A stretch of 35,706 nucleotides of DNA from Bacteroidota bacterium. Lineage in GTDB: Bacteria > Bacteroidota > Ignavibacteria > Kryptoniales > JAKASW01. Of the stretch, positions 19,600 to 32,843 are shown in pieces. Both the position numbers and the translations under genes were made by a program. Each line of letters opens with the position of its first letter. Within the stretch, counting starts at the first letter, position 1. The stretch spans positions 1-35,706 of the forward strand of contig JAJYRM010000036.1 of NCBI GenBank assembly GCA_021794075.1, given 5' to 3'. The notes under the pieces were generated by a model that saw only the letters and a list, made by a program, of their open reading frames with translations, searched no databases and was not told where the DNA came from.

Positions 19600-19737
19600 A
19601 TGAGTAAAGGTCGTGACAGCAGAAGAGGTTCAAAGAAAGAACCGGAGAAAACCATGAAAGAAAAGAGAGCGGCCAAGAGAACCAAGAAGGACCAAAAGAA
19701 AGACGAGAACAAGAGCCTCGGTATCCTGAAGCAATAA
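19600..19737 (+). CDS. Small basic protein of unknown function (45 aa)
   Basis: ATG 19600 to TAA 19737 gives 45 residues, MSKGRDSRRGSKK at the start and a C-terminus ending SLGILKQ. Fifteen or more residues are Lys or Arg and acidic residues are spaced between them. AGAGGGA at 19588-19594 sits about 6 bases before the ATG, a good ribosome binding site, and the frame uses plausible codons. Small Lys-rich proteins of this kind occur in many Bacteroidetes and relatives and may bind nucleic acid, but no function can be assigned. It stands alone between the tRNA terminator and the Dps-like gene. Confidence 0.6.
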   Translation: MSKGRDSRRGSKKEPEKTMKEKRAAKRTKKDQKKDENKSLGILKQ

Positions 19738-20036
19738 CGATCCCTGGTAAAAGTCGCGGGCCTTACCGGAGATTCTCTGATCGCCAGGGTTGATCTATTG
19801 CTTAGTAATCACTCATGGTTGGTCTCACTTTTTGAGAGTTCCGACTCGTTTTACATGCTGCATGGTTGTTTGTGCGGTTAATGAATGCCGCCGCACGGGG
19901 ACGTAGCGGTCTCTAAACGAATTCTTCTATTGTCCCTTGAGTAGGGCATGCTTCTCGTCCGTAGGACGGATTAAAACCGAAGCGCCGTCCGCCGGTTCGA
20001 GATTTAGATTATTCTCACAAATGCACCGAAGGTGAA

Positions 20037-20498
20037 ATGGAACCAGAAATAGAAAGTCCCGGTGAAAAGTCGGTGCAAATCCTCGAATTCCTCGAATTGA
20101 TGCTGGCAGATGAGTATGTGCTTGCCGTGAGAACGAGAGATGCACGGCGGAATGTATACGGGAGAAACGTCACCGGGCTGCGTAAGTTATTCAGGGAACA
20201 TTGCAAGTGTCTCAATAGCGCTGTCGTAGATATGGAAGGCAGGGCTCGGTCACTGGGAAGACGAACTCCAGCGACCTTTGCGCATTACATGAAGGCCACA
20301 CGGCTCTACGTTCACAACGAGAAACTGACAGGACAGAAGGAAATCATCGGAGCATTGCTTGAAGATCACCAATCCGTGATCCGCACACTGGCTGGCGCGA
20401 GGAGAAGTCGGCCCGGAAGCGACTTTCTGGAATTTGTGACGCCGCTGCTGGATCAACATATAAGAATGGTTGACACCCTCAGAGAATGGTTGCAATAA
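20037..20498 (+). CDS. Dps/ferritin-like protein lacking the ferroxidase ligands
   Basis: A 153-residue all-helical protein resembling Dps: a LADEYVLAVRTR helix, an N-V-x-G-x-N turn, KLFREH, a GRRTPAT segment matching the Dps GG-x-P-x-T, and LLEDHQSVIRTL. Aligning by eye to E. coli Dps, the five ferroxidase residues H51, H63, D67, D78 and E82 correspond to R37, R49, R53, V64 and G68, so none is kept. The dodecamer ferroxidase site should therefore be inactive. The protein is arginine-rich and could still bind DNA or assemble. GAAGGTG at 20028-20034 supports ATG 20037. It may be a structural or DNA-protecting relative rather than an iron-storage enzyme; the Dps relation itself is a pattern judgment. 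Confidence 0.72.
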   Translation: MEPEIESPGEKSVQILEFLELMLADEYVLAVRTRDARRNVYGRNVTGLRKLFREHCKCLNSAVVDMEGRARSLGRRTPATFAHYMKATRLYVHNEKLTGQKEIIGALLEDHQSVIRTLAGARRSRPGSDFLEFVTPLLDQHIRMVDTLREWLQ

Positions 20499-20708: not shown

Positions 20709-20927
20709 ATGAAACATCAGCAAGTGGTCGTCGCGGGATTTGAAAACGAGATAAATGCCAATATCGCAAAAGGGCATCTCGAATCCGAAGGCATTGGAGC
20801 TTCCATTGTGAAAAATATTGTGGGTGGTATGTTTCCGGCATCACAGTACACCGAGGGCGTCCAACTGATGGTCGACAAAAGTGAAGAAGAAAGAGAGAAG
20901 AGAATACTTGAATCAAAGCATACGTGA
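20709..20927 (+). CDS. DUF2007 small protein (putative signal-transducing)
   Basis: A 72-residue cytoplasmic protein matching DUF2007: an N-terminal V-V-A-G-F strand, a helix with A-N-I-A-K-G-H-L-E-S-E-G-I, a strand, then a variable loop and V-Q-L-M-V. This is the fold of PII-like signal-transducing domains found at protein ends or alone; its ligand is unknown. AAGGAGG at about 20696-20702 before ATG 20709 is a near-perfect ribosome binding site. It has no obvious operon partner. Confidence 0.8.
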   Translation: MKHQQVVVAGFENEINANIAKGHLESEGIGASIVKNIVGGMFPASQYTEGVQLMVDKSEEEREKRILESKHT

Positions 20928-21238: not shown

Positions 21239-23569
21239 ATGACATTCTCGCCGGGCGGCGAGGGAAATAACGAGGATATTACGGAGCACGTGTCATCTAA
21301 TTTCACGATTGATCGAATTGCCTTTATCGGCAATTACCTGCCGCGCCAGTGCGGCATTGCTACTTTTACCACAGACCTGTGCGAGGCAATGGTCTCCGAG
21401 TACGGCGACAAGGCTTTCATTGCCCTTCCGGTAAACGACAACGCTACAGGCTATGAGTATCCGGAACGTGTCCGGTTCGAGCTGACAGAAAAGGACATCG
21501 ATTCATACCGCCGTGCCGCCGACTTCCTGAACATCAACAATGTAGACCTCGCCTGCCTTCAGTTCGAGTACGGCATATTCGGCGGACGGGCGGGAAGCCA
21601 CATCCTCGCGCTCCTCCAGGAACTTCGAATGCCGGTCGTGACTACTCTCCACACGATTCTCCGTAACCCGGACCCCGATCAGCGGCGCGTGCTGGAGGAG
21701 GTTGCCGCCTTATCCGACCGGCTGGTCGTCATGAGCGACCGGGGTGCCGAGTTTCTCCGGGAAGTGTATCACGTGGCTCCCGGGAAGATCGATATGATAC
21801 CGCACGGCATTCCCGATGTGCCTTTTGCCGACCCGAGCTTCAACAAGGATATGTTCGGTGTCGAGGGTAAGATTGTCCTGCTGAGTTTCGGACTCCTTTC
21901 GCCGAGCAAGGGGATCGAGATCGTAATCGGCGCCCTACCTGAGATTGTGGCGCGTTATCCGAACATAGTGTACATGATTGTGGGGGCAACGCATCCTCAC
22001 GTGATACAGCATGACGGCGAAGCCTACCGCCTTTCGCTGCAATGGCTGGCGCAGGAAAAGGGAGTCGAGAGTAACGTAATTTTCTATAATCGTTTCGTCA
22101 GCCTGGAGGAACTTGTCGAGTTCATAAGCGCCGCGGATATTTACATCACGCCGTATCTCAACGCGGCGCAGATCACTTCCGGCACACTCGCTTACACGCT
22201 AGGCGCAGGCAAAGCGGTGATCTCTACGCCGTACTGGTATGCGGAAGAAATGCTCGCGGAAGGGCGGGGCGCTCTCGTCCCATTCAACGACACCTCGGCG
22301 ATGGCAGGCCAGGTTATTAACCTGCTGGGCAACGAATCGGAGCGACAGGCCATGCGGAAGAAAGCGTATCTGTTTGCGCGGACGATGATCTGGCCGCAGG
22401 TCGCGCGGCGTTACATGGAGAGTTTCGAACGCGCTCGTTCCGAGCGGCGGCATTACAGTCCGCCGGGGTTCACCGTGAAAGCGCTCGACAAACGTCCCGG
22501 TGAATTGCCTCCCTTGAAGCTGGATCACCTGCACCGCATGACGGACGAAACGGGCATGTTGCAGCACGCGCTTTTCACTGTTCCAAACTATAGGGAAGGG
22601 TACACCACCGACGACAACGCGCGTGCGTTGATGGTGAGTGCCTTGCTGGAAGAACTGGGCAACGGGGAAGCCCCGGAGTTGACGTCACGCTATCTTGCCT
22701 TTGTCTGGTACGCGTTCAATGCTGAATCGGGACGGTTTCGAAACTTCATGGATTACCAGCGCCAGTGGCGGGAAGAAAAAGGCTCGGATGATAGTCACGG
22801 TCGCGCGCTCTGGGCCCTGGGCACATTACTAGGCCGCTCAAACACGCCGACACTTCAGAGCATGGCGGGAAAACTGTTCGAACAGACCATCCAACCCATT
22901 CTTGCGACGACCAGTCCCCGGGCCTGGGCCTTCGCTCTCATAGGTATCCATGAATATGTGCAGAGGTTTGCGGGCGATCGCCTGGCCGGACAGGTGCGCG
23001 AGGAATTGTCCGGCAGGCTTCTGACGCTCTACCGAAATCACAGGGCCGATGAATGGCGATGGTTTGAAGATGTGCTGACATACTGCAACGCGGCACTGCC
23101 TCACGCGCTGCTGTTGAGCGGCAAGTATGATCCCGACAAGGAAATGACAGATGCAGGTTTGGAGTCGCTGACCTGGTTGATGAACCTCCAGCGCACCAAT
23201 GCTGAAGGAGGTCACCTCGTTCCGATAGGCTCGAACGGTTTTTATGAACGCGGCGGCAAGCGGGCGCGGTTCGATCAACAACCTGTGGAGGTCCAGGCCA
23301 CAGTGTCTGCATGCCTGGCAGCGTACAGGATTACCGGCGAGAAAAGCTGGCGCAGGGAAGCGCGGCGCGCGTTCGAGTGGTTCCTTGGCCGCAACGACCT
23401 GAACCTTCCGATATACGATCCGACAACGGGCGGATGCCGTGACGGGCTGCACCCTGATCGCCCGAACGAAAACCAGGGAGCCGAGTCGACGCTCGCCTTC
23501 CTTCAATCTCTGCTGGAGCTGCGGCTGGACGAAAATACTTTTCAATCAATGGAGGCAAAAACCGAATGA
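21239..23569 (+). CDS. GT4-type glycosyltransferase fused to a helical (six-hairpin-like) domain
   Basis: A 776-residue protein. Residues about 24-395 are a GT-B glycosyltransferase of the GT4 kind: NYLPRQCGIATFT, HGIPDVPF (189-196), SFGLLSPSKGIEIVIGAL (216-233) and TLGAGKAVISTPYWYAEEML (320-339). The usual GT4 E-x7-E is not kept; Q311 and Y319 sit at those places, seen by eye. Residues about 415-770 form an all-helical domain with DETGMLQHALF (436-446), GYTTDDNARAL (454-464), DDSHGRALWALG (517-528), EGGHLVPIGSNGFYERGG (656-673) and NENQGAESTLAFL (743-755). These acidic clusters suggest a glycoside-processing or sugar-binding (alpha/alpha)6 barrel. It overlaps the GH130 gene by 4 bases. The donor sugar is probably a GDP- or NDP-mannose (inference from GH130). 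No ribosome binding site is seen before ATG 21239. Confidence 0.88.
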   Translation: MTFSPGGEGNNEDITEHVSSNFTIDRIAFIGNYLPRQCGIATFTTDLCEAMVSEYGDKAFIALPVNDNATGYEYPERVRFELTEKDIDSYRRAADFLNINNVDLACLQFEYGIFGGRAGSHILALLQELRMPVVTTLHTILRNPDPDQRRVLEEVAALSDRLVVMSDRGAEFLREVYHVAPGKIDMIPHGIPDVPFADPSFNKDMFGVEGKIVLLSFGLLSPSKGIEIVIGALPEIVARYPNIVYMIVGATHPHVIQHDGEAYRLSLQWLAQEKGVESNVIFYNRFVSLEELVEFISAADIYITPYLNAAQITSGTLAYTLGAGKAVISTPYWYAEEMLAEGRGALVPFNDTSAMAGQVINLLGNESERQAMRKKAYLFARTMIWPQVARRYMESFERARSERRHYSPPGFTVKALDKRPGELPPLKLDHLHRMTDETGMLQHALFTVPNYREGYTTDDNARALMVSALLEELGNGEAPELTSRYLAFVWYAFNAESGRFRNFMDYQRQWREEKGSDDSHGRALWALGTLLGRSNTPTLQSMAGKLFEQTIQPILATTSPRAWAFALIGIHEYVQRFAGDRLAGQVREELSGRLLTLYRNHRADEWRWFEDVLTYCNAALPHALLLSGKYDPDKEMTDAGLESLTWLMNLQRTNAEGGHLVPIGSNGFYERGGKRARFDQQPVEVQATVSACLAAYRITGEKSWRREARRAFEWFLGRNDLNLPIYDPTTGGCRDGLHPDRPNENQGAESTLAFLQSLLELRLDENTFQSMEAKTE

Positions 23570-24531
23570 GCAATCACTTTCCCGAACTTTTTCTCCGCGA
23601 TAAATCGAATCCTATTCTTACATCGGCCGACTGGCCCTATCCGGTCAACACTGTTTTCAATCCCGGGGCAACTCTGCTTCCTGACGGGTCGACGCTGCTC
23701 CTGTGCCGGGTGGAGGACCGGCGGGGATTATCCCATTTATCCGCCGCGCGCTCTGCAAACGGCGTGGACGGCTGGAAGATCGATTCCCGGCCCACCTTGT
23801 TGCCGGATCCGGAGCATTTTCCGGAAGAGCTGTGGGGAATCGAAGACCCACGCATCACGTTCGTTCCCGAGTTGGGGAAATACGCGATCGTATACACGGC
23901 TTACAGTCACGACGGACCAGGCGTTGCTCTCGCGCTTACTGAAGATTTTGTGGCCTTCGAAAGGCTTGGACTAGTGATGCAGCCAGACGACAAGGATGCG
24001 ACATTGCTTCCACGACGTTTCGACGGACACTGGGCGCTGATCCATCGCCCGGTGAGTGTGCCGGGTGCACACATGTGGATCTCGTACTCGGCAAACCTGA
24101 AGCATTGGGGCGGTCACAAGATGATGCTGGAAGCGAGGCTCGGAGGATGGTGGGACGCAAACAAAATCGGACTATCCGCACCTCCTATCGAGACCCCGCA
24201 GGGATGGCTCGTCATCTATCACGGAGTGCGGCAGACAGCCGCCGGGTCAATCTACCGGCTGGGTCTGGCATTGTTCGATCTGCAAAGGCCCGATCGATGT
24301 TTGAAACGCGGGGACGAGTGGATATTCGGCCCGGAAGAAGAGTACGAGCGCCACGGCGACGTCGACGATGTTGTCTTCCCGTGCGGATACACGATCGGCC
24401 CTGACGGCGATACGATCAGAGTGTATTATGGCGCGGCAGATTCTTCCATCGCATTGGCTACTGGTAGCATACGAACGATGCTTGAGTGGCTCGACCGGCA
24501 CAATTCTGTAACACCGGTTGTGACTCACTGA
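23566..24531 (+). CDS. GH130-family glycoside phosphorylase (mannoside-type)
   Basis: A 321-residue five-bladed beta-propeller enzyme of family GH130, whose characterised members phosphorolyse beta-mannosides (mannosyl-glucose, beta-1,4- or beta-1,2-mannooligosaccharides) to mannose-1-phosphate; a few hydrolyse. Family features: FNPGATLL (31-38), a CRVEDRRGLSH region (47-57), GIEDPR (91-96) holding the catalytic Asp D94, KDATLLPR (143-150), H160-R-P in the phosphate-binding area, PPIET and YHGV (218-221), and YYGAAD (287-292). No signal peptide is present, so it works in the cytoplasm. The ATGA overlap with the glycosyltransferase means the two are co-translated. Together they suggest synthesis and phosphorolytic recycling of a short mannoside, reserve or compatible-solute type; the substrate is inferred. 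Confidence 0.9.
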   Translation: MSNHFPELFLRDKSNPILTSADWPYPVNTVFNPGATLLPDGSTLLLCRVEDRRGLSHLSAARSANGVDGWKIDSRPTLLPDPEHFPEELWGIEDPRITFVPELGKYAIVYTAYSHDGPGVALALTEDFVAFERLGLVMQPDDKDATLLPRRFDGHWALIHRPVSVPGAHMWISYSANLKHWGGHKMMLEARLGGWWDANKIGLSAPPIETPQGWLVIYHGVRQTAAGSIYRLGLALFDLQRPDRCLKRGDEWIFGPEEEYERHGDVDDVVFPCGYTIGPDGDTIRVYYGAADSSIALATGSIRTMLEWLDRHNSVTPVVTH

Positions 24532-25252: not shown

Positions 25253-25314
25253 CACGAGTTCACACCCTGTAGGTCCGGTTCTCCCGGACACCATAAGAAG
25301 GGAGGAAATTGACT

Positions 25315-25515
25315 TTGAAGAATCTGGTTGTATCGAGTGATCGAGACTGCTTTGTTGAATTAATCCATCGCGAGTCCGATCCCGCTACATGGATCGTGAA
25401 ACGCTGGAAGAAATTCCTGTGGTTTAAGAAAAAGATCTCATCAGATTGGTTCAGTGATGAGCAACAGGCAATGGCATTTGCAAATGAAATGAAACTCAGC
25501 CACCAGCGGCTTTGA
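25315..25515 (+). CDS. Small hypothetical protein (66 aa)
   Basis: TTG 25315 has GGAGGA at 25301-25306, 8 bases upstream, and is preferred to TTG 25309, which is too close. The product is 66 residues, soluble, with several tryptophans in T-W-I-V-K-R-W-K-K-F-L-W and a basic centre, ending in FSDEQQAMAFANEM and a short tail. I do not recognise it. It lies 62 bases after the previous gene and 29 before the next, so the three probably share a transcript. Confidence 0.58.
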   Translation: MKNLVVSSDRDCFVELIHRESDPATWIVKRWKKFLWFKKKISSDWFSDEQQAMAFANEMKLSHQRL

Positions 25516-25544: not shown

Positions 25545-25793
25545 ATGCAGGAAATAGATCGTCATTTAAGAAACCGGAGAGGGAGTTCACCTCCGTTTCA
25601 GGAAATAGAGAAATGGGCTGATGATGGGGCTGACGGAGCTCATTGGATCAAGATGGTTGCGGCGGCTTTTCAAAAAGAAGAACCCGGATTGATGATAAGT
25701 CTTGCTCAGGAAGAGGCTGTCGTTGCCGGGTGGGAAGATAAGTCAAGGTGGGAAGACGACGGAGGGATGATTACGTCCGCGACCCGAATATGA
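25545..25793 (+). CDS. Small hypothetical protein (82 aa)
   Basis: An 82-residue acidic soluble protein starting MQEIDRHLRN. AGAGAG at about 25530-25535 is a moderate ribosome binding site. It has a tryptophan-containing helix (EIEKWADDGADGAHWIKMV) and a second WEDKSRWEDD segment. No family recognised. It follows the 66-residue gene on the same strand by 29 bases. Downstream, 25794-26085 is a 292-base stretch with a T-rich region at about 25873-25880 and no gene; it probably contains the end of this transcript and the leader of the helicase gene. Confidence 0.5.
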   Translation: MQEIDRHLRNRRGSSPPFQEIEKWADDGADGAHWIKMVAAAFQKEEPGLMISLAQEEAVVAGWEDKSRWEDDGGMITSATRI

Positions 25794-27541: not shown

Positions 27542-27569
27542 CATGTTTTACCGCTTAACCAGGAGAGGC

Positions 27570-27947
27570 ATGAGAGATAAAACGGACGGCGGGTTCACCG
27601 TTTCAATTGCATCATCGGTTCAAAAGACACTGCGCTCACGTTACTCCGCGGAGAGGCTTGTCAGGGCCATAGTGGGCATGTGGAGAGAGAAATCCGTCGA
27701 AAATAACGAGCCCTCCTCGCTCATCCTTGACTTCGACGGTATCTTTCGGTTGCCAGAATCTGTCGCAGACGTGCTCGTTCATTTCCGTTACGAATTCCCC
27801 GGCGGCAATTGTAGTCGGGTTGAATTTCTAAACGTATCGGCTCCTGTCAGGAAAGCTCTAGCATCGGCTGAGAAATCTCTTGGACAGTTTCACAAGAGAG
27901 TCAACGTCAAGAGAGAAAAGAAAAGTGGTTTCATGATAGAGATTTGA
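27570..27947 (+). CDS. STAS-like (DUF4325-type) protein
   Basis: A 125-residue soluble protein. AGGAGAGG at 27561-27568 favours ATG 27570 over ATG 27543, which lies against the hairpin. The first half (SVQKTLRSRYSAERLVRAIV) is a helix-rich region; the second half reads SLILDFDGIFRLPESVADVL followed by RVEFLNVSAPVRKALASAEKSL. This beta-strand LDF-G pattern with a Ser-Val-Ala helix is that of STAS-like DUF4325 domains. Such proteins act as anti-anti-sigma-like or regulatory switches, sometimes near histidine-kinase-like ATPases. No partner kinase gene is adjacent. The domain assignment is by pattern and moderate. Confidence 0.55.
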   Translation: MRDKTDGGFTVSIASSVQKTLRSRYSAERLVRAIVGMWREKSVENNEPSSLILDFDGIFRLPESVADVLVHFRYEFPGGNCSRVEFLNVSAPVRKALASAEKSLGQFHKRVNVKREKKSGFMIEI

Positions 27948-28240
27948 ACCTGTACCGGAGATTCAGCAGGGCAAAGCGCTTATGCCGGAGGGGAAATCGG
28001 CTCGAGCCCTGTGGAGTAAACCTCTGTATCCGGGCCTCGGTTATGATCGGAACACCACTCTTATGAACTAATCCTTTTGACCGATTTTATAGGAATGCCG
28101 GGCCTCCTAACTTGAGCGGAGAGAAAAGGCGAGCAGTGAACCGCAAGTGGGCATGAGGACCGCGTCCCATCGCTAGATCGTTGCTTCATCCCGCTAAGAT
28201 CCGCACGCCGTAATTCCGGAAATCCAAAGCAGGAGCCGTC

Positions 28241-29851
28241 ATCAAACGCAAACTTCGAGTTGGGATAATCGACCTCGTGACCAAGGGGCCGACACGGGCG
28301 CTCTGGGCACGCGTCATGAACGCCAATTTTGCGAGTATCATGCCGCAGGTACTCGGGGTATGGTGCGAGGAGCTCGGACACCAGGTAACATCGGTATGCT
28401 ACACCGGTTTCGAAAACCTGGTGGATGAACTTCCGCGCGACGTCGATATTGTTTTCATCGGCGCGTTCAGCGAGGCCGGGCAGACCGCATACGCGCTGAG
28501 CAATCTCTTCCGCTCACGCGGCGCGATCACCGTGCTTGGCGGACCGCACGCCCGATGCTATCCGCAGGACGCCCAGAAATATTTCGACTACGTCGTCGGA
28601 CTGACCGATAAGCAAGTCATCGAGGATGTCCTTGCCGATTGTTCGCGTCACAGGCCCGTCGGCCTCTACCTCACGGCTAAACAGCAGCCCGAGTTCATAC
28701 CGGGAGTGCGGGAAAGATGGAAGTTCATCGAGTCGACGCTTAAGAAGGCTCCGCTGATAAAGCTCGTCCCGATGATTGGGAGTCTCGGCTGTCCGTACAC
28801 GTGCAGTTTCTGCATCGACTCAGTGATTCCATATCAACCGCTCGATTTCAATGTCTTGAAGGAAGATCTTTCCTTCCTTCTGAAGAAATTCAAGCGACCG
28901 GTTGTCGGCTGGCACGACCCGAACTTCGGGATAAGGTTCGACGATTACATGGACACGATAGAGGATTCTGTGCCGCCCAACAGCATAGACTTCATCGCAG
29001 AAAGCAGTCTCTCCCTTCTGTCCGAGCCGCATCTCAAGCGGCTCAAGCGCAACGGCTTCAAAGCCATCCTTCCGGGAGTGGAGTCGTGGTACGAGCTCGG
29101 CGGCAAGTCAAAAACGAACGGTGTGTCGGGCTTGAACAAGGTCAGGCAGGTGTCCGACCATGTCAATATGATACTCCGCTATATCCCGTACGTGCAGACT
29201 AATTTCGTCCTTGGGCTCGACAGCGACGAGGGGTCCGAGCCGTTCGAGTTGACGAAACGATTCCTTGACATGACTCCGGGGACTTTTCCCGGGTACTCGC
29301 TTCTTTCTGCGTTCGGGCAGGCGGCGCCCGTCAACCTTGAATATCAGCGGGCCAATCACGTACTCCCTTTCCCGTTCCATTTCCTGGACAACAATCATGC
29401 TATGAACGTGAAGCCGAAGAACTATTCATGGCCGGAGTTCTATCAGAATGTCATCGACCTGACGAAATACGCGTTCACCTGGAGTGCGATCCTTAAAAGA
29501 TTCAAATCGACCGGCGCCGTTAAGCCGCGGTTGATGAACGTCCTCCGCGCGGTATCGTCGGAAGGGTTCGGGAGGATAAAATACTTCACGGAAGTCCGGC
29601 GGCTCCTGAGAACGGACGTTCAATTCAGGCGCTATTTTGACCAGCAAACGACCGATCTCCCTAAGTTTTACAAGGACATCATAGAAGAAGATTTGGGGCC
29701 GTTGTGGGACTGGCTTCCCCCAGGTGCGCTGTACCACGATCCCAACGCGTACCTGAAAGCCGAGAATGAGCGGACCTGCGCGGCATCTGCCGCGAGTGTT
29801 GATTCTGCGCAAAGATCAATAGGGGAAGAGAAATCTAAGACCGCTGCGTGA
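28241..29851 (+). CDS. B12-binding-domain radical SAM protein, probable ATC start
   Basis: A radical SAM protein with an N-terminal cobalamin-binding-type Rossmann domain. The cluster motif is C-x3-C-x2-C in GSLGCPYTCSFC (C184, C188, C191 counted from 28241). Before it, LRVGIIDLVTKG opens the first beta strand, and LGGPHARCYPQDAQKYFDYV covers the later part of the B12-type domain. The start is unusual: the frame is open from 28214, the first standard start is GTG 28277, but that would cut off the first beta strand. AGGAG (28231-28235) sits 5 bases before ATC 28241, giving 536 residues. Substrate unknown; family members methylate unactivated carbons or modify lipids and natural products. The C-terminal 120 residues are alpha-rich and unassigned. 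Confidence 0.85.
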   Translation: MKRKLRVGIIDLVTKGPTRALWARVMNANFASIMPQVLGVWCEELGHQVTSVCYTGFENLVDELPRDVDIVFIGAFSEAGQTAYALSNLFRSRGAITVLGGPHARCYPQDAQKYFDYVVGLTDKQVIEDVLADCSRHRPVGLYLTAKQQPEFIPGVRERWKFIESTLKKAPLIKLVPMIGSLGCPYTCSFCIDSVIPYQPLDFNVLKEDLSFLLKKFKRPVVGWHDPNFGIRFDDYMDTIEDSVPPNSIDFIAESSLSLLSEPHLKRLKRNGFKAILPGVESWYELGGKSKTNGVSGLNKVRQVSDHVNMILRYIPYVQTNFVLGLDSDEGSEPFELTKRFLDMTPGTFPGYSLLSAFGQAAPVNLEYQRANHVLPFPFHFLDNNHAMNVKPKNYSWPEFYQNVIDLTKYAFTWSAILKRFKSTGAVKPRLMNVLRAVSSEGFGRIKYFTEVRRLLRTDVQFRRYFDQQTTDLPKFYKDIIEEDLGPLWDWLPPGALYHDPNAYLKAENERTCAASAASVDSAQRSIGEEKSKTAA

Positions 29852-30103: not shown

Positions 30104-30799
30104 TTGGCTGAGAAGATTAAACTCCTGATCATCGAGGACAACCCGCTGCTCCGTGAGGGCATTTCGGCGATACTCAGGAGAACCCCGGATATCCGGGTGG
30201 TCACCGGACAGGGCAGCCGGAAGAAACCGCTGCAGAAAGTGCATGATCTCAAGCCGAACGTGCTCCTTCTTGATCTCGGACTGAGAGGTCAAAGCAGCCT
30301 GGAGATAGTACGGGCGGTCAAGTTGGATTATCCTCACGTGAAGGTCATAATCATGGACCTGGCCCCGACCGAGACGGACATCCTGCTCTTCGTGCGTGCC
30401 GGAGTCTCCGGTTTCGTGCTCAAGGGCGCAACGACTGAAGATTTTCTCAGGACCATCCGTGCCGTAGCGCGCGGAAAGAAGGTGCTGCCGCAGCTGATGA
30501 CCGAATCGCTCTTCTCACAAATCGTGGAGCAGGCCGTCAGCGGAAAAATCACATCTAGAGTTACGGAAGCTGTACGGATGACAAGGCGCGAGCGCCAGGT
30601 AATCTCACTGATAGCGGAGGGGCTTTCGAATAAGGAGATCGCCGATAAACTGCATCTCTCCACCTACACTGTAAAGAGTCACGTGCACAACATCCTCGAG
30701 AAACTACTTCTTCGATCCCGTGTCCAGATCGCAAAGTACGCGCTGACAAATTCGGAGCTGACGGAAGCCGAGGAAAGCATTTCTCTCATCGAGGAGTAA
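30104..30799 (+). CDS. LuxR/NarL-type response regulator with altered receiver
   Basis: A 231-residue regulator. The receiver (about 5-120) has E11 and D12, phospho-acceptor D57 in VLLLDLGLRG and K107 in GFVLKGA. The conserved Thr/Ser of the active site (usually T in I-L-T-A) is replaced by D85 in VIIMDLAP, which may alter phosphorylation-driven switching. The LuxR-type helix-turn-helix (about 164-222) reads MTRRERQVISLIAEGLSNKE, followed by the recognition-helix segment STYTVKSHVHNILEKL. The start is TTG 30104 with GGAG at 30095-30098. A 6-bp hairpin (ACCCGT/ACGGGT, 30799-30817) follows without a T-run. No histidine kinase is adjacent. A paralogue follows 179 bases later. Confidence 0.88.
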   Translation: MAEKIKLLIIEDNPLLREGISAILRRTPDIRVVTGQGSRKKPLQKVHDLKPNVLLLDLGLRGQSSLEIVRAVKLDYPHVKVIIMDLAPTETDILLFVRAGVSGFVLKGATTEDFLRTIRAVARGKKVLPQLMTESLFSQIVEQAVSGKITSRVTEAVRMTRRERQVISLIAEGLSNKEIADKLHLSTYTVKSHVHNILEKLLLRSRVQIAKYALTNSELTEAEESISLIEE

Positions 30800-30978: not shown

Positions 30979-31668
30979 ATGAAGAAGACCAGGCTTTTGC
31001 TAATCGAGAAGAATCGTATGCTGCGGGACGGGCTCGCCGCGATTCTCAAGAAGCGTGATGATGTCACTATAGTGGCCGCCTCCGGGGACAGTGAAAATAC
31101 GATTCTGAAGCTGCATAAACTGAACCCGAACGTGATTCTTCTGGATCTCAATTTACGCAGTCAGAACAGCCTGCACGTAGTCAGTCTCGTGAAGAAGGAA
31201 TTCCCGGAAGCGAAAGTGGTGGTAATGGATCTGGCCCCCGTTCACGGCGACGTCGTTCAATATGTGAGGGCGGGAGCGTCGGGTTTCATACTAAAGGACG
31301 CGACGCTGGACGACTTCATCGCCACCATACAAACGGTATCAAAAGGCGGACAGGTCCTGCCGCCTACGCTTGCGGATTCGCTCTTTTCGCTGATTGTGGA
31401 ACAGGCAATCAAGGGAAAGAAAATCACGATTACGGAGCCCGTCAGGATGACCAAAACGGAAAAAGAGATTTTCGGGCTCGTCGGCAACGGCCTGAGCGAC
31501 AGGGAAATCGGGGAGAAGCTTAAGACTTCGACGCGCGCCGTGCGGACGCATCTGCAGGCAATCATGAAAAAACTGGCATTGCACACCCGACTGGAGATTA
31601 GGGATTATAAATACACCGATGGGACCCTGGAAACGATCGTCGGCAGCATCTCGATAGTCGGAGACTGA
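30979..31668 (+). CDS. LuxR/NarL-type response regulator, second copy with missing acid residue
   Basis: A 229-residue paralogue of the upstream regulator, alike in length and layout. The receiver keeps D56 and K106 and also has Asp (D84, in VVMDLAP) at the Thr/Ser place. It differs in the metal-binding acidic pair, which is E10-K11 instead of E-D, so Mg2+ binding should be weakened and normal phosphorylation is doubtful. The output HTH (about 160-215) reads MTKTEKEIFGLVGNGLSDRE and then TRAVRTHLQAIMKK. CAGGAG at about 30967-30972 supports ATG 30979. The pair may form a heterodimer or one may be phosphorylation-independent (inference). Confidence 0.87.
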   Translation: MKKTRLLLIEKNRMLRDGLAAILKKRDDVTIVAASGDSENTILKLHKLNPNVILLDLNLRSQNSLHVVSLVKKEFPEAKVVVMDLAPVHGDVVQYVRAGASGFILKDATLDDFIATIQTVSKGGQVLPPTLADSLFSLIVEQAIKGKKITITEPVRMTKTEKEIFGLVGNGLSDREIGEKLKTSTRAVRTHLQAIMKKLALHTRLEIRDYKYTDGTLETIVGSISIVGD

Positions 31669-32843
31669 ACGAGGGGGGACTCAATGCCGGCCGGAATCAC
31701 CGGACGAAATGACAGGTGCCCGGAGCGGCCCAACTGGTTGCTGGCCTATGATGGGGAATAATGTTTGAACTGGTGCGTGCAATACCGGGCATAGCCCCTG
31801 AACGGGAGAATGGAGACAACGACGTGATACGGGAACGACTCAAAAAACTTTGGAGCTTAATCTGGAGGGAATCTATGGATGAACTGATATTCGGGAATCA
31901 ATCGAAACATAAACAGCCGATTGGGATTTCATGGCTCAATGTTCACAGGCTGTTCGATAATCGTTGGTGGCGGCGCCTTCGTTTCAGATTGTCCCTTCGG
32001 CAATTATAGAGGCTAGGCTCGCGTCGTCGCCAATCCGACTAAAAAGCGAATGGGTTAGCGATCAAGAGAGCTATTGCAGGGGCCCCATTCGACGGCAGAC
32101 GGAGTGGAGTTAATTAGAGCAGTGCAGATAGAGAATAAGGGCCGCTGAGATTGGAATCAAACGTTGCAAAGCTTGACGGAAGTGGGTGCTTGAATTAAGG
32201 TAGCTACTTCCGATCCAGATAGCTTTGGCAACAACCACAGAGTGACTCGGAGAGCAGATACTCAAGCCGGCGTGGTCGTTGAGAACGCTTAGGACATCAT
32301 TCGATTGATTTCCTTTGTCAATCGGACCATCTTTACCTTCCCTCTGGCCTGTTTCCAAATGACTACGGCGATTCTAACCACCAGGAAGTTCGAGTCATCG
32401 TGCCGATCGGGGAGCCATACCTTCCAAATCTTCGGCCATTCGAGTAGATGCTTTAATGTACGTGCAGTTTTTTGTGGCCCCATCATCTCCTTAATGAAAG
32501 TCACGCGAAGAACGTGAATCGATATGTATCCGTGGTTAAGTGGGGACGGAGAGTTCAGTTTGTGAAGATTGATCGGCTATCCTTTGTATTCAGCTTGTTT
32601 TTTATTGGCTCCTGGTCTAACATCATGAAGACATGGAACGATCGAACATGGCGCAGGAAGTCAGTGGCAATAACCAGGAGACGAACTCGTCTCGGACTCG
32701 AAATCAAAGTAGGGTCTCGAGGAATAAGTTTCGTTTCATATCGGTCTCAGTCAAGCAAAGATATTGTTGTGTGCGGGCTGAAAGGTACGATGCTGGTTCA
32801 AAATCTCAATTTGTGGTCATGTCATGCCTGAAAGTATTCGGCG
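31669..32843. other. Gene-poor stretch (1.2 kb)
   Basis: I find no well-supported gene. A frame at 31761-32009 (82 codons) has only a weak GGGG upstream and looks arginine- and tryptophan-rich in a way that suggests chance. A minus-strand frame at 32289-32504 has AAGGAG before internal ATG codons and is the only other candidate, but I recognise nothing in it. Overlapping frames in all directions with no codon bias suggest non-coding or decayed DNA. Confidence 0.45.

Follow-up and report, generated by a model that had tools for sequence, protein, structure and literature searches.

Gene content and structured leader of the locus

The DNA analysed (the window) is a 35,706-nt stretch of contig JAJYRM010000036.1, and contains an open reading frame at positions 20037-20498 of the forward strand that encodes a Dps-like protein of 153 aa without a ferroxidase site (a dead Dps). 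The initial annotation had credited the gene with a good ribosome binding site; a site is indeed present (GAAGGTGAA-ATG), but it is moderate and is not conserved in the orthologues. Neither a Rho-independent terminator nor a sigma-70 promoter was found on the strand of the gene. A structured leader of 64 nt, which forms one long hairpin with a 15-nt loop and covarying pairs, is located at 19940-20003 (forward strand) and ends 33 nt upstream of the ORF. Five of the leader pairs change on both sides, and 83% of cells are paired in the drawn structure versus 31-46% when it is slid, a control that favours the drawn structure as this was drawn from the same sequences. The single-sequence folding energy of the leader is ordinary (z -0.46), therefore the case for the element rests on conservation and covariation. 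In a comparison in which the coding region shows 86% identity, the leader reaches 96%. The element precedes eleven dead Dps genes, of types a, b, d and s, the hairpin having been lost in G001a. A covariance model located it in 9 of the 13 genomes of the genus and nowhere else in 149 genomes of the class; three strong matches outside the model-building set occupy the same gene slot (E 1e-10 to 2e-6), two weak matches (E 0.04 and 0.07) resemble chance matches, and no known RNA family in Rfam matches the element. It was thus seen in this gene island of this genus only. At several loci the leader sits just after a gene for a small basic protein, and it persists close to that protein with a truncated Dps gene in the sister genomes G002 (L111) and G004 (L114), and without any Dps gene on contig 9 of G007 (L118). 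Because it also follows the small basic protein and remains without Dps in the latter case, the leader may serve the pair of small basic protein and Dps, not Dps alone. Upstream of the leader, a very basic 45-aa ORF (MSKGRDSRRGSKKEPEKTMKEKRAAKRTKKDQKKDENKSLGILKQ) is found at 19600-19737 on the same strand.

The dead Dps gene belongs to a conserved gene island; the features listed here with coordinates all lie on the forward strand of the window. Directly 3′ of it, as in close relatives, lies a gene for a 72-aa DUF2007-like protein (20709-20927; borderline Pfam match). The island contains two conserved neighbours, a GT4-type glycosyltransferase (21239-23569; common to the loci of five relatives) and a GH130 protein of the mannooligosaccharide phosphorylase family (23566-24531), followed by small proteins and a DEAD-box helicase, which was identified by reading its sequence. 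Two small proteins at 25309-25515 and 25545-25793 have no Pfam matches and show strong conservation across the islands of this genus; an RGSSPPFQE...W.DDGANG motif is present in the second. The segment at 27543-29851 comprises a small conserved protein (27543-27947), for which Pfam gave no match, and a radical SAM protein (28277-29851); the former, located between the helicase and radical SAM genes, is a protein of 125-135 aa and resembles a STAS-type regulator by eye. Two LuxR-type response regulators (30104-30799 and 30979-31668) belong to the same island and adjoin the s-type dead Dps in relatives. A small basic protein (cluster 15) also belongs to the island, as does the s-type Dps in relatives. 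The s-type gene is missing from the window, where the small basic protein survives only as a truncated remnant at 31794-31958; the full version, of 85-100 aa with a GISWLNVHRLFDFRRWR motif, precedes dead Dps genes in relatives.

Replacement of the metal site and predicted fold

When the window protein was aligned to E. coli Dps and 31 relatives using MAFFT, no gap fell in helices A and B or between them, and the alignment paired the ferroxidase ligands H51, H63, D67, D78 and E82 of E. coli Dps with R37, R49, R53, V64 and G68, respectively. The ligand set thus reads RRRVG, exactly as the initial annotation had proposed from an alignment by eye. Both tryptophans of E. coli Dps are also gone (W52 is replaced by R38, and W160 by D146). 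A shifted register that would restore the ligands was looked for and rejected, because the alignment is gapless, D65 pairs with the neighbour of D78 and not with D78 itself, and the anchors LADEY, TR, NV.G, LRK.F and R.R.LG fix the register and leave no space for a shift. On this alignment, a canonical ferroxidase site is impossible in the window protein. The N-terminus (MEPEIESP) contains no lysine or arginine, and there is no C-terminal tail.

Profile and sequence searches show homology to ferritin/Dps proteins. The match to PF00210 (E=1e-4, 22.7 bits) is slightly under the gathering cut-off of 24.5, and the scores against the Dps NCBIfam equivalog models are far below their cut-offs. A phmmer search matched Pseudomonas aeruginosa Dps (PDB 8ff9) to the window protein at 7e-8, and a profile of the family matched 8ff9 at 4.8e-36. 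A single-chain AlphaFold2 model, built from an 18-sequence alignment, had a mean pLDDT of 86.9 and a pTM of 0.82, and contained helices at residues 9-39, 45-72, 81-87, 100-124 and 128-152, which form a four-helix bundle with a short helix (81-87) in the BC loop. Using Foldseek against the PDB, the best 50 matches were all Dps-family proteins, with E. coli Dps superposed at a TM score of 0.85 (rmsd 1.8 Å) and 8ff9 at 0.82. The subunit is predicted to retain the Dps fold that had initially been assigned to it, and a different fold is ruled out by the model together with the Foldseek matches.

A clade of dead Dps proteins in one genus

A search of 100 relatives found thirteen proteins without a ferroxidase site, distributed over 9 of the 13 genomes of a single uncultured genus (Kryptoniota/Bacteroidota metagenome-assembled genomes, MAGs). 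They comprise the a/b type (window, G009, G011, G001, G010, G009b and G007), an s type present in four genomes, and two intermediates, G005 (ligand positions YREVH) and G008 (HRKAT). No more than one of the five ligands survives in any of them, and D78, E82, W52 and W160 are absent from all 13; the remnants are H51 in G008, H63 in G010s, and an acid at position 67 in G005, G009s and G012s. In a tree calculated with the ligand columns removed, all 13 form one clade (support 100/100) nested inside canonical Bacteroidota Dps, with G007c and G054c as the nearest canonical relatives; in G007, the canonical gene (G007c) adjoins the dead copy at a distance of about 150 bp. This topology and gene arrangement fit an origin by one duplication within the genus followed by loss of the site in one lineage, and the intermediates G005 and G008 suggest that the last ligands were lost stepwise. 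The other canonical Bacteroidota Dps read, from the class and the phylum, keep HH(E/Q)DE and W52. Sampling of 395 genomes from the phylum and 391 from the class, with the weaker matches read in part, revealed no member of the clade beyond the genus. A clade of homologues, for which the initial annotation had suggested looking, exists within the genus and shares the loss of the site, and its orthologues rule out an artefact of a single genome.

Pairwise dN/dS (NG86) between the window protein and its four closest relatives was 0.18-0.33, and in the three pairs tested the difference between synonymous and non-synonymous change was significant (Fisher p 4e-10 to 5e-6), in keeping with the earlier view that the gene is not an obvious pseudogene. 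Simulation of neutral evolution indicated that the ORF would survive in about 2-7% of cases per lineage. The a/b type has 48 invariant positions out of 153, and the longest invariant run is the nine residues RTRDARRNV, which lie across the old metal site (permutation P 0.002). By these measures, the dead Dps clade is under purifying selection. Three arginines at the ligand positions had been highlighted initially; R37, R49 and R53 are all real in the window protein, but this trio does not define the family, as R53 is variable (R/S/G/K/E/Q in relatives) and it is R37, R38 and R49 that do not vary within the a/b type. The invariant run and these fixed arginines argue that the old site was replaced and then maintained, not left drifting. 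The canonical Dps of the genus has a dN/dS of about 0.05 (with dS saturated), relative to which the dead Dps is several times higher, and there are broken copies in the compared genomes: truncated genes still close to the leader in G002 and G004, and an s-type gene with an in-frame TAG in G001. Constraint is therefore moderate, with loss ongoing.

Candidate roles of a Dps without a ferroxidase site

The explanation we consider probable is that a duplicated Dps is no longer a ferroxidase and has been retained as a non-catalytic cage in which the arginine block was re-used. The duplication would have taken place within one uncultured genus of Kryptoniota/Bacteroidota. In one lineage (the 13 proteins, of two main types), the ferroxidase site has disappeared entirely, together with the two redox tryptophans; the subunit, as modelled, kept the Dps fold. 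We infer that it assembles into a Dps-like cage (or a dimer) unable to oxidise iron, and that the arginine block (R37, R38 and R49 with R32 and R34), which in a canonical cage would lie at the cavity-facing dimer interface, now serves a new purpose in binding or structure. The gene is probably expressed in connection with the signalling island and controlled via the structured mRNA leader. The dead copies probably do a different job from canonical Dps.

A more specific version is improbable: the former iron site would be a conserved arginine pocket, and instead of iron the cavity would contain an anion, whether phosphate, polyphosphate, a nucleotide or nucleic acid. If true, such an anion-holding cage would be a new functional class of Dps. 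The initial annotation had proposed that the arginines turn the metal site into a positively charged surface. In a canonical cage, the replaced positions are presumably at the cavity-facing dimer interface and not on the outer surface.

Conversion to an iron-independent nucleoid protein, a Dps retained only for physical protection of DNA, is unlikely. Physical DNA protection is already known as an activity of Dps, and the five closest members combine a pI of 8.5-9.0 with arginine-rich segments, as such a role would have it; however, the N-terminal tail has no lysine or arginine, the C-terminal tail is absent, and the charge is not conserved, the pI falling to 6.1-6.4 in G009b, G007d and G005d and to 4.7-6.2 in the s type. 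A basic pI is, to judge from these sequences, not a clade trait, and the DNA binding initially suggested finds no support in the MEPEIESP terminus or in the pI of about 6 or less of distant members. Some Dps proteins do not bind DNA. Binding of DNA by the window protein is possible, including via surfaces other than tails. We give rather little credence to the alternative that the protein is a non-catalytic subunit of a mixed cage, co-assembling with and tuning an active Dps or ferritin as the L chain does for H-chain ferritin. The tandem canonical Dps of G007 favours it, as do canonical Dps or bacterioferritin-like genes in G001, G005, G008, G010, G011 and G012, and a mixed cage is possible in these relatives. 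In the genome of the window it is unlikely, because no second PF00210 gene was found there (a 4.53 Mb MAG, 99.8% complete); rubrerythrin-like genes are present, but their products are no cage partners, and in the tree the canonical Dps of G001, G008 and G010 branch far from the dead copies. That the protein is a decaying paralogue, whose function went with the ferroxidase site and whose ORF is open by chance or through recent relaxation of selection, is very improbable. The elevated dN/dS, the broken copies in G002, G004 and G001 (s type), and the failure to find any copy in G003 and G006 are what decay would produce; against this, nine genomes keep the ORF open, with dS reaching 1 or more, the synonymous excess is strong, an invariant block covers the old site, and the leader is conserved above the level of the coding region.

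The window protein shares with canonical Dps (E. coli Dps and P. aeruginosa PA0962, PDB 8ff9) the fold with its BC helix, the length, a gapless core alignment and TM scores of 0.82-0.85, and differs in having none of the five ligands, W52, W160 or the DNA-binding tail. Eukaryotic L-chain ferritin is a ferritin-superfamily subunit retained without ferroxidase activity. Mixing of H and L chains in ferritin is described in PMC6315955; unlike the dead Dps, in whose genome no such partner was found, the L chain is the partner of an active H chain in a 24-mer. Nostoc Dps4 has a His-type site (PMC6675082), and P. aeruginosa PA4880 a bacterioferritin-type site (PMC11150526), both altered but working. 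These are also Dps folds that depart from the canonical site, but in them one metal site is swapped for another, whereas the window protein retains no metal ligand. All Dps proteins, even those that do not bind DNA, are said to possess ferroxidase centres (PMC13319912). In the open literature searched, outside which lies an older report on Lactococcus lactis DpsA and DpsB, no clear case of another Dps lacking a ferroxidase centre was found. The ferroxidase site of these two proteins is reportedly also unusual. DpsA and DpsB are likewise Dps proteins examined for DNA binding and differ in binding DNA by N-terminal helices that are absent from the window protein (Stillman 2005, cited in PMC4433220). 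What appears to be new here is a Dps clade without any ferroxidase site, atypical Dps proteins with one working metal site swapped for another being already known. A selected clade of this kind would part the cage from iron chemistry in nature, and as the only detectable Dps or ferritin in the genome of the window, the dead Dps offers a natural test of the function of a Dps shell without iron oxidation.
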